A stretch of 64,000 nt of DNA, from contig NZ_SUMF01000001.1 in NCBI RefSeq assembly GCF_005048205.1, forward strand, positions 186,001 through 250,000. The letters run 5' to 3'. Shown piece after piece: positions 45,943 to 53,215 of this stretch (position 1 is the first letter of the stretch; each line of letters begins with the position of its first letter). The notes beneath the pieces are model-generated. The model did no database searches. It saw only the letters and a program-made list of their open reading frames with translations, and had not been told where the DNA came from. The position numbers and the translations under genes were made by a program. This DNA is from Chitiniphilus eburneus (GTDB lineage: Bacteria; Pseudomonadota; Gammaproteobacteria; Burkholderiales; Chitinibacteraceae).

Positions 45943-46140
45943 TCAGGCCAGCCCTGAAAATGGAAACGCCCTCGCAAAGCGAGGGATGAGAGGGATATGC
46001 AAAGCGCAATGGTTTTGCCATGGCAGCGACAGGAGAATCGACCTGAACCGCCATCTCCCGGAAAATTCCACCTGCCACCATGCCCCACCCCGCCGCCGAT
46101 CAAGCCACCCGCGAGCGCAGCGAGGCTCCCTCGCGGCGGC
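45943..46140. other. intergenic stretch left of the tandem repeats
   Basis: No gene is supported. It contains a related word (GAATCGACCTG at 46034) that echoes the GAATCGACCAGG of the tandem repeat units, suggesting an older, diverged unit. Confidence 0.4.
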
Positions 46141-46436
46141 GAGGGCGGGGGGAGTGGAATCGACCAGGAAGCACCGTTCCTTGCATGCCACCATGGCGAG
46201 CGCCCGGCTTGGCCGGGGGCCCGTATCACGGCAGCACACTTCGCGATGCCCAAGTACATAAAGGTGTGTGCGAGGGCGGGGGGAGTGGAATCGACCAGGA
46301 AGCCCCATTCCTTGCATGCCGCCTTGGCGAGCGCCCGGCTTGGCCGGGTGCCCGTATCACGGCAGCACACTTCGCGATGCCCAAGCACATAAAGGTGTGT
46401 GCGAGGGCGGGGAAAGTGGAATCGATCAGGATGGGC
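46141..46436. repeat. 131-bp tandem repeat, two full units and a partial third
   Basis: Units begin with GAGGGCGGGG at 46141, 46272 and 46403, an exact period of 131 bp. Units 1 and 2 are almost identical over their length; the third breaks off after GGAATCGATCAGG at about 46436. Each full unit contains GTATCACGGCAGCACACTTC and a GC-rich dyad around GCCCGGCTTGGCCGGG. They lie between the TonB receptor and PepSY genes. Confidence 0.85.
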
Positions 46437-46459
46437 CTCTGCCGGCAGCCATCGATACA

Positions 46460-46482
46460 GCGCCCCCGGCTTCGCCGGGGGC
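46460..46482 (-). other. GC-rich hairpin downstream of the TonB receptor gene
   Basis: GCCCCCGGC-TTC-GCCGGGGGC is a strong stem-loop ~45 nt past the receptor stop. Without a T tract it is not a classic terminator but may stabilise the mRNA end. Confidence 0.45.
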
Positions 46483-50822: not shown

Positions 50823-51785
50823 TCACGCCGAACCCGATCGCAATGCCTCCAGCGCGCGATAGGACGGCATTGCCCATTGCTCGATGGCTTCGATCAATGC
50901 AGCCGGCGCCTCGGCACGTTTGCTGGCGCCATCCTCCGCAAAAGTGGCTTGCGGCTGCTTGGCGTGATGTGCGGCTTGCGCCAGCACCGCTTCATTGCAT
51001 GCGGGTGGCACGCCCAGCAGGTCGCCCAGCCGGCCGCAGACCGCGTGCGGCAGTTCGAGATAATTCACCGGTAGCAGGTGGCGCGCCTCGCATTGCGCCA
51101 GCCCGGCCGCGAGCAGCCGTCCCAGCGTCCTGGCGATGAACTGCACCCGAGGCATCGCGGCCGCCTCGTCCGGCGCGAACGCCAGCGGCGATGCGCCGAT
51201 CAGGCCCGGCACCATATGCCGCCCCGGCTGGCGCAGGTGCGAGACGGCGATTTCCAGCGGATGGCGATACAGGTAAATGCCCGGCACATCGGGGAACGCA
51301 GCGCGCATCCGGTCAGCCTCGAAGATGTTCCAGGCGTCCAGCTTGATCACGACACACTGCTCGGCGCCCTGCCGCCGCTGGCCCAGCGCCGATACCAGGT
51401 CGCGCAGCCAGGCGCCTTGATGCGCTTCGGCGGTGGCATCGCGCCAGGGTGCGCGCAGCACCGCATCCAGCGGTGGCGGTTCAGCGTAGACCGCATGGCT
51501 GTCGAGCGCGCACAGCATCCGGGTGATCAGCGTGGAACCACAGCGCGACGCATGATAGACCAGCGCCTGCAACGGCACGCCCGGGCTGGCCTCGCGCCAG
51601 CGCGACAACTCGGCCATGGCGGTCTGTCGGCGCAGCGCCTGGTTGAACGGGCGCCGCAACGCCGCTTCGATGCTGTCCTGGAAAAAAGGCTCCGTCAGCG
51701 GTGCCGCGCCGAACCAGGCCCAGTCGATCGACCAGCCCCCCTCCGCGCCCCACGCGCGGATCGGCAGCCAGTCACGATAATCCAT
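50823..51785 (-). CDS. sulfotransferase family protein
   Basis: A 320-residue PAPS-dependent sulfotransferase-like enzyme. The 5'-phosphosulfate loop is YHASRCGSTLITRML (about residues 80-95) and the 3'-phosphate motif is PGIYLYRHPLEIAVSHLRQ. A VIKLDAWNIFEADRMR segment lies between, as in the family. The start ATG at 51785 overlaps the upstream hydroxylase stop by one base (TGATG); an ATG at 51797 is also possible. The neighbourhood with an Asp/Asn hydroxylase and an APS kinase suggests sulfation of a hydroxylated product. The acceptor is not known. Confidence 0.8.
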   Translation of the reverse strand: MDYRDWLPIRAWGAEGGWSIDWAWFGAAPLTEPFFQDSIEAALRRPFNQALRRQTAMAELSRWREASPGVPLQALVYHASRCGSTLITRMLCALDSHAVYAEPPPLDAVLRAPWRDATAEAHQGAWLRDLVSALGQRRQGAEQCVVIKLDAWNIFEADRMRAAFPDVPGIYLYRHPLEIAVSHLRQPGRHMVPGLIGASPLAFAPDEAAAMPRVQFIARTLGRLLAAGLAQCEARHLLPVNYLELPHAVCGRLGDLLGVPPACNEAVLAQAAHHAKQPQATFAEDGASKRAEAPAALIEAIEQWAMPSYRALEALRSGSA

Positions 51786-52588
51786 CACGCCATCCATTGT
51801 TCGCTCCAGGCGCGCCGGCCCTGCCGCATCGCGTTCCGGACATCGTCCGCCCCCAGCTTCAGGCCGATCTCCCCCGCCAGTTGCAGCAGCGTATCGGTGA
51901 ACTCGGCGGCGGATTCCAGCCGGGCCAGTTGCGCGATCAGCGTGGGGTCGGCATGGATATGCGCGCGCAGTCGGGCGAACTCGCGCGCGCCCCGCGCCGG
52001 GCGGGATGGCGGCGTATCGCCCAGGCCGGCCGCGATGGCGGTGGACAGCCAGTCGCAACGGGCCACGTCGATGACCAGGTGCACGCGCTCGAGCGCGCTG
52101 TCGTTGTCCACCCGGTGCGGGCGCGACAGATCCAGCATCCAGCATTCACCCGCCACCATCGGCACCGCCTCGCCATCCAGCACGAATTCCACCTGCGGAT
52201 GGGTGCGCAGCGGAATATGTAGGCGCACGTCACCATCGGGCGCACCCAGGTCCGGGTCGCGATGCTCGCGGATGCGCGCGCCCGCCGCCAGTGACAGTAA
52301 CCGCGCGCTACGGATGGGCGCCTTGATGCGGTCCAGTACCGTTTGCCATGCGGGGAACCGTTGCAGCCATTCGGTAGCGATTACCGACTGGCATCGCTCC
52401 GGCGGGGCCAGCGGAGTCAGCGCTCCGGCTGGCGCGATCAGCGCGATGCCCCGCCACTCACCTTCGTAGTGCTCGGTATTGAAGTGGCGGCTCCAGGCCG
52501 CATCGGGCATGCGATCCAGCCAGATCGCCAGTTCGGCGGCATCGAAACGCAGTGGCAGGCGGGCATGGCGTGGCAGTGGCGAAGACAT
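51785..52588 (-). CDS. aspartyl/asparaginyl beta-hydroxylase with C-terminal Nif11-like domain
   Basis: A 267-residue cytosolic cupin-fold hydroxylase. The 2-oxoglutarate/Fe(II) region is LLSLAAGARIREHRDPDLG with the metal pair His109-x-Asp111. RLHIPLRTHP follows, then MLDLSRPHRVDND with a likely third ligand His158. Residues 203-256 (FARLRAHIHADPTLIAQLAR, then LLQLAGEIGLKLGADDV) resemble the Nif11 domain, best known as leader of some peptide natural products. There is no Gly-Gly cleavage site. It is the first gene of a two-gene unit with the sulfotransferase, divergent from the APS kinase gene by 48 nt. The substrate is unknown. Confidence 0.8.
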   Translation of the reverse strand: MSSPLPRHARLPLRFDAAELAIWLDRMPDAAWSRHFNTEHYEGEWRGIALIAPAGALTPLAPPERCQSVIATEWLQRFPAWQTVLDRIKAPIRSARLLSLAAGARIREHRDPDLGAPDGDVRLHIPLRTHPQVEFVLDGEAVPMVAGECWMLDLSRPHRVDNDSALERVHLVIDVARCDWLSTAIAAGLGDTPPSRPARGAREFARLRAHIHADPTLIAQLARLESAAEFTDTLLQLAGEIGLKLGADDVRNAMRQGRRAWSEQWMA

Positions 52589-52636
52589 CGGCGTCGATGG
52601 CGTTAAAATGATGACGCCGAATTCTAGACGTCCACG

Positions 52637-53215
52637 ATGATCCTACCCAATTCCATTTCGTTATCAGCGTATCCCGGGAATGGCGCGGTACTGCTGTTCA
52701 CCGGCCTGCCGGGTGCCGGCAAATCGACGCTGTCGCAACAACTGCACGCGCAGCTCACCGCGCAGGGGCACGCGGCGGCGATCCTGGATGGTGATGTCCT
52801 GCGGCGCGGTCTGTGCGCCGACCTGGGATTTTCCGAGGCGGATCGTAGTGAAAACGTACGCCGCGCCGGTGAAGTGGCGCGGCTGATGGCAGAAGGCGGG
52901 CTGTTGGTGCTGCTGGCGCTGATCGCGCCGTTGGCACGGCAACGCGCCATGTTGCGGGAGCGGGTCGGCGCACCGTTCCTGGAAATCTGGTGTGCGGCGC
53001 CACTGGCAGCCTGCGAGGCCCGAGACCCGAAAGGGCTGTACGCGCGGGCGCGGGCTGGGGCGCTGCCAGGGCTGACCGGTATCGATGCGCCCTACGAAGC
53101 GCCACGCCAGCCCGACCTCATGCTCGACACCGATCGCCTGACGCCGCAGCACTGCCTGCAACAGGTAACGGCACTGCTGGAAGCACGGCTACCGCATCTG
53201 ACACGGCGCGGCTGA
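52637..53215 (+). CDS. cysC: adenylylsulfate (APS) kinase
   Basis: Phosphorylates APS to PAPS, the sulfate donor of sulfotransferases. The 192-residue protein has Walker A GLPGAGKST (residues 23-31), the DGDVLRRGLCADLGFSEADR stretch typical of CysC, ENVRRAGEVARLMAEGG, and the late DPKGLYARARAG and GIDAPYEAP motifs. All family marks are present, though LLALIAPLARQRAMLRE shows some drift from the SFISP motif. Divergent from the hydroxylase-sulfotransferase pair, and not linked to cysDN. This supports a dedicated PAPS supply. Confidence 0.9.
   Translation: MILPNSISLSAYPGNGAVLLFTGLPGAGKSTLSQQLHAQLTAQGHAAAILDGDVLRRGLCADLGFSEADRSENVRRAGEVARLMAEGGLLVLLALIAPLARQRAMLRERVGAPFLEIWCAAPLAACEARDPKGLYARARAGALPGLTGIDAPYEAPRQPDLMLDTDRLTPQHCLQQVTALLEARLPHLTRRG

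Follow-up and report, generated by a model that had tools for sequence, protein, structure and literature searches.

A hydroxylase with a Nif11-like tail, its partner sulfotransferase and an APS kinase in Chitiniphilus eburneus: a candidate protein-modifying cassette associated with an export operon

Three genes of Chitiniphilus eburneus, lying together in the 64,000-nucleotide stretch of DNA analyzed here (the window), encode a putative hydroxylase, a sulfotransferase and an APS kinase, and the question they raise is what, if anything, is hydroxylated and then sulfated, and with which partners. The three genes are as the first-pass annotation had described them: a PF05118 hydroxylase, a sulfotransferase whose gene shares a single base with it, and an APS kinase in divergent orientation. 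Base 51785 is common to the TGA stop codon of the hydroxylase and the ATG of the sulfotransferase. The features are as follows.

50823..51785, minus strand: PAPS-dependent sulfotransferase, 320 aa (PF13469 below cut-off; PSB and 3'-PB motifs conserved)
51785..52588, minus strand: 2-oxoglutarate/Fe(II) hydroxylase of 267 aa that ends in a Nif11-like domain (PF05118, conserved metal residues, AlphaFold model)
51791..51994, minus strand: C-terminal helical Nif11-like domain, hydroxylase residues 199-266 (PF07862 in homologues, AlphaFold helices)
51821-51982, minus strand: residues 203-256, the segment originally likened to Nif11
52589..52636, no strand: intergenic 48 bp separating the divergently oriented hydroxylase and APS kinase genes
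52637..53215, plus strand: APS kinase (PAPS supply), divergently transcribed (TIGR00455 193 bits; PF01583 E 1.6e-54)

The trio's neighbors in the window are yebC, a PHA-synthase-like gene and a nucleotidyltransferase. A substrate gene beside the trio was considered and rejected, as the neighbors are housekeeping genes and differ between genera. Elsewhere in the window, positions 46139-46482 hold a tandem repeat (131 bp unit, ~2.6 copies) beside a TonB-receptor-like gene.

The hydroxylase matches PF05118 with an E-value of 4.7e-16 (59.5 bits against a cut-off of 22.6). His109-x-Asp111 and His158, which had been proposed as the metal site, are invariant in an alignment of 43 homologues, as is Arg168. 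In the AlphaFold model (43 sequences; mean pLDDT 92.9, pTM 0.88), the DSBH core ends near residue 178, and residues 179 to 266 form a helical domain of their own at the C-terminus. The best match is L-proline cis-4-hydroxylase both by Foldseek (1.5e-11) and by sequence in the PDB (3.4e-7); the closest solved structures also include proline 3-hydroxylase and a nucleoside-antibiotic hydroxylase, and by Z score the nucleoside-antibiotic hydroxylase, the proline hydroxylases and AspH (Z ~16.7) are nearly tied, these PDB structure searches probing mainly the DSBH part. L-proline cis-4-hydroxylase (PDB 4p7w/4p7x) has the same PF05118 fold and HxD...H metal site as the window enzyme, but it is only 23% identical to it, acts on a free amino acid and has no known partner sulfotransferase. 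Matches to the hydroxylase on plasmids were only partial and below 50% identity. Automatic annotation presumably names such hydroxylases "Nif11 domain/cupin domain-containing".

An Asp or Asn target, as first suggested, is not borne out. AspH (PDB 5apa, 5jqy) shares the PF05118 DSBH fold, but its iron is held by two histidines only, His679 and His725 (PMC6817910), and the family name therefore does not imply Asp/Asn hydroxylation. Whereas AspH lacks an acidic ligand and carries TPRs, the window family has an Asp ligand, D111, in all 43 sequences, together with its Nif11-like tail; the nearest structures, moreover, include proline hydroxylases. Assignment as AspH proper was thus rejected, as was assignment as an LpxO lipid A hydroxylase (NF033391, 25.6 bits against a cut-off of 500).

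Taken alone, the window hydroxylase gives no match to PF07862 (Nif11) in the Pfam profile search, the result that the first-pass annotation had itself named as telling against its Nif11-like segment. The claim is rescued by the homologues: PF07862 is matched by 9 of 12 in the first set (best 6e-5) and by 38 of 43 in the larger one (best E 1.5e-7). In the AlphaFold model, the separate C-terminal domain has tail helices at 199-212, 215-222, 227-240 and 247-266. No second Nif11 protein was found when the organism's own genome was searched for Nif11 at 1e-3. The same PF07862 domain occurs in the Nif11-related leaders of RiPPs (N11P, TIGR03798; PMC2887384), but in the hydroxylase it stands at the C-terminal end of an enzyme and is not followed by a core peptide. 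The protein was accordingly rejected as a Nif11-type RiPP precursor; only ~10 residues follow the domain, and these have a conserved R..W..QW end.

The window sulfotransferase scores weakly against PF13469, at 22.5 bits where the cut-off is 27. Its 5'-PSB (HASRCGSTL) and 3'-PB (YRDPLEIxVSHLRQPG) motifs are nonetheless conserved, and orthologues, taken with their neighbors in the frame, do reach the cut-off in genomes G002, G003, G004, G014 and G016. The APS kinase passes TIGR00455 (193 against 138.7 bits) and is, as judged by profile, a canonical one, divergent in direction and not in kind. A second, weaker APS-kinase-like gene in the same genome (L172:7026-7649 on contig C67; 84.6 bits) adjoins a nucleotidyltransferase-like gene and is probably not there for PAPS supply.

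The linkage of hydroxylase and sulfotransferase recurs far beyond chance, as had been anticipated for related genomes: the sulfotransferase adjoins the hydroxylase in all 49 genomes read. A protein search found the hydroxylase in 7 further genomes of the window's taxonomic family, with 4 Pseudomonadaceae added from the genome collection; overall, a full-length hydroxylase is present in 60 of 298 Pseudomonadaceae genomes. The APS kinase is adjacent to the pair in the window's genome and in G014, G015 and G016, and it lies directly upstream of the pair on the same strand in five Pseudomonadaceae. Among genomes of the window's family, 8/8 that are pair-positive have a strong APS kinase, vs 3/35 others. 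Two irregular loci were noted: in L105 (G520), the hydroxylase gene is in two frames, by frameshift or sequencing error, and the operon described below is otherwise complete; in L103, the second hydroxylase copy of G703 is a divergent PF05118 gene without a sulfotransferase, beside asparagine-synthetase-like and ligase-like ORFs.

Five distant proteobacterial relatives are single proteins in which PF05118 is followed by PF13469. Universal pairing, these five gene fusions and the distribution of the APS kinase support the idea of a coupled hydroxylation and sulfation with local PAPS supply. One fusion (L162, in G298) lies in a cluster with an Asn synthetase, an HPr-kinase-like protein, another sulfotransferase and PqqD, with a B2-like ORF upstream by sequence reading; by its gene content, this cluster is lasso-peptide-like. 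The same cluster (L176/L162; G298:C3, ~365-377 kb) also contains a JmjC-like gene. TPR-sulfotransferase genes lie close to the fusions of L157, L158 and L160, immediately beside the fusion in L157 and at a distance of ~0.8 kb in L158. No Nif11 tail is detectable in the distant and fused hydroxylases, and an M50 match (see below) was absent from the 11 genomes with such hydroxylases, in a search that had no positive control; the enzyme pair is thus not tied in general to the exporter described below.

The first-pass annotation had also proposed a neighborhood survey for a conserved substrate gene; the pair does recur with conserved partners, but they form an export operon, with giant DUF4347 and collar proteins, that the annotation had not seen. 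By neighborhood clustering and tblastn, 32 of the 35 Pseudomonadaceae genomes read have the pair inside this one operon (in G667, a divergent version of the pair). Its order is HlyD, GAF-like/HlyD, M50/HlyD, hydroxylase, sulfotransferase, GNAT, DUF6916, at least one tail-collar gene, giant DUF4347 and TolC, sometimes with a second sulfotransferase between the tail-collar and giant DUF4347 genes; the domain names are from Pfam, except for GAF in the second adaptor, which was assigned by reading the sequence and has no Pfam match behind it. The DUF4347 giant has an N-terminal LEPRxMFDGA motif and Ig/cadherin-like repeats. The motif was rejected as a specific substrate: it is conserved both with and without the hydroxylase and is not diagnostic. 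The operon resembles the type I secretion of giant adhesins in combining TolC and HlyD-type adaptors with a giant repeat protein, but that system employs an ABC ATPase, whereas no ABC ATPase gene was seen in the 17-19 kb operon stretches read, which instead carry the M50/HlyD and GAF-like/HlyD proteins. Nor did the operons read contain further biosynthetic genes, such as NRPS, carrier or ligase.

At least three gene orders exist. One is M50-HYD-SULF-GNAT-DUF6916-collar-DUF4347; in five genomes the order is TolC-APSK-HYD-SULF, downstream of DUF4347 where the contig shows it; and G667 provides the third. An M50 orthologue is present in 60/60 hydroxylase-positive Pseudomonadaceae vs 29/238 others (p 4e-41, uncorrected for phylogeny), and in G411, G413 and G414 hydroxylase and M50 are both present though unlinked. 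Repeated rearrangement with the same partners is a better argument than the co-occurrence counts, all of which ignore phylogeny. The pair is an optional cassette of the operon because some operons lack it (G440, G561 and others), the M50 and GNAT genes there being cleanly joined.

The trio had been described as self-contained; its partner genes in fact sit elsewhere in the window's genome. The operon core is on the same contig at C1:510-529 kb, ~275 kb from the trio, and comprises GNAT, collar, a second sulfotransferase, DUF4347 (~2,700 aa), TolC, two HlyD proteins and M50, the part from collar to M50 occupying C1:511.5-529 kb. TolC, the two HlyD-type adaptors and M50/HlyD are directly behind DUF4347 (L147:7970-15070), and no ABC transporter was seen there. 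The second sulfotransferase (L146:15325-16167, C1:512324-513166), beside the DUF4347 giant, scores 63 bits against PF13469 and is 65-78% identical to the copies in Pseudomonadaceae operons; a Sulfotransfer_3 search of the genome gave only this copy, plus the sub-threshold one of the trio. Linkage of pair and operon was found in 0/8 pair-positive genomes of the window's family; M50 is present in 6/8 of these vs 1/35 other genomes of the family. In G004 it is the APS kinase that adjoins the operon (GNAT-DUF6916-collar-DUF4347-TolC-HlyD-HlyD-M50), the pair being elsewhere in the genome. G002 and G003 contain the pair, the APS kinase and collar genes but neither the M50 exporter nor DUF4347, a weak hint that the collar proteins, and not the giant protein, are concerned.

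No Pfam family matches residues 1-110 of the M50/HlyD protein. When this N-terminus was modeled (pLDDT 84.5), the nine top Foldseek matches were all RRE-bearing RiPP proteins (TbiB1, lasso B1, CteB), with Z scores of 10.1 to lasso B1 and 8.2 to PqqD. It is therefore predicted to have an RRE fold, found by fold and not by HMM: the PqqD/RRE profile PF05402, which is known to miss many RREs (PMC7470986), was unmatched in 24 M50/HlyD members. The best NCBIfam match of the protein is a daptide intramembrane metalloprotease, at 162 bits, below the cut-off of 300. RRE-dependent RiPP systems (PqqD, lasso B1, CteB) would then share this fold with the operon, but they act on a short precursor peptide, whereas in the operon the candidates for modification are a giant protein or a collar protein. 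The earlier suggestion that the Nif11-type part recruits a peptide or protein survives in outline, now joined by the predicted RRE fold on the partner protein.

We propose that the hydroxylase would add a hydroxyl group to a protein, and that the sulfotransferase would then sulfate this new hydroxyl with PAPS supplied by the APS kinase. The substrate would most likely be a component of the export operon, either the giant DUF4347 protein or the neighboring small tail-collar/DUF6916 proteins, handled by the HlyD, GAF-like/HlyD, RRE-M50-HlyD and TolC proteins; the Nif11 tail would probably serve in recognition, docking on the predicted RRE of M50/HlyD or on the substrate. We lean, with some reserve, toward this reading of the cassette as one that hydroxylates and then sulfates a protein of the export system. 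A more specific version, tentative at best, is that RiPP logic is applied to a giant secreted surface protein: the RRE-bearing M50 protease/adaptor may recognize the leader-like LEPRxMFDGA or else the hydroxylase's Nif11 tail, and the pair may add sulfated hydroxyls to the adhesin, or to its collar-domain partners, before export.

It is somewhat unlikely, although deserving of serious attention, that the pair makes instead a sulfated small molecule (a hydroxylated free amino acid, lipid or nucleoside), its position in the operon reflecting co-regulation or metabolite export. The closest structures are indeed hydroxylases of free amino acids (4p7w, 1e5r) and of a nucleoside antibiotic; PF05118 includes LpxO-type lipid hydroxylases (cf. 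the weak NF033391 match), TolC and HlyD could export small molecules, and two genomes carry the pair without M50 and DUF4347. However, the Nif11-like tail and the partner's predicted RRE are peptide-recognition parts, the operons read offer no NRPS, carrier or ligase, and a fused relative sits in a lasso-type ribosomal-peptide cluster. That same cluster, the Nif11 domain, and a predicted RRE fold on an M50 protein whose best NCBIfam match is a daptide protease could suggest a hidden RiPP: a short, uncalled precursor would be hydroxylated and sulfated, the RRE would recognize it, and the M50 protease would cleave it ahead of export. We consider this improbable because clustering of ORFs of at least 45 aa, under one codon-composition filter, found no small conserved ORF by the pair except DUF6916/collar, and the window's own genome lacks a second Nif11 protein.

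The least probable explanation, in our judgment, is linkage without shared function, i.e., a mobile accessory cassette in a permissive operon. The optional presence of the pair between M50 and GNAT, and its separation from the operon in the window's family, would fit such a cassette. It accounts poorly for the same partners being kept together in different gene orders, for the presence of M50 in every one of the 60 hydroxylase genomes, even those where the two are unlinked, and for the APS kinase having been independently drawn to the same operon (G004, G621). Modification of a protein of the export system remains our preferred reading.

The enzyme classes are known, but their combination and their association with the export operon appear to be undescribed in the literature searched: the open-access papers covered contained neither Nif11 nor an asparaginyl hydroxylase combined with a sulfotransferase in such a sense, nor anything on LEPR-XLL or DUF4347 export with M50. 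Bacterial proteins and peptides are rarely sulfated, and few examples of this modification are understood. If our proposal is correct, a pair of enzymes that creates the very hydroxyl group it goes on to sulfate, and that in some lineages is fused into one protein, would constitute a new route to protein sulfation. Through its association with an apparently undescribed RRE-M50-HlyD-TolC export operon, the pair comes with a short and concrete list of candidate substrates, and the operons with and without the pair would be ready natural controls.
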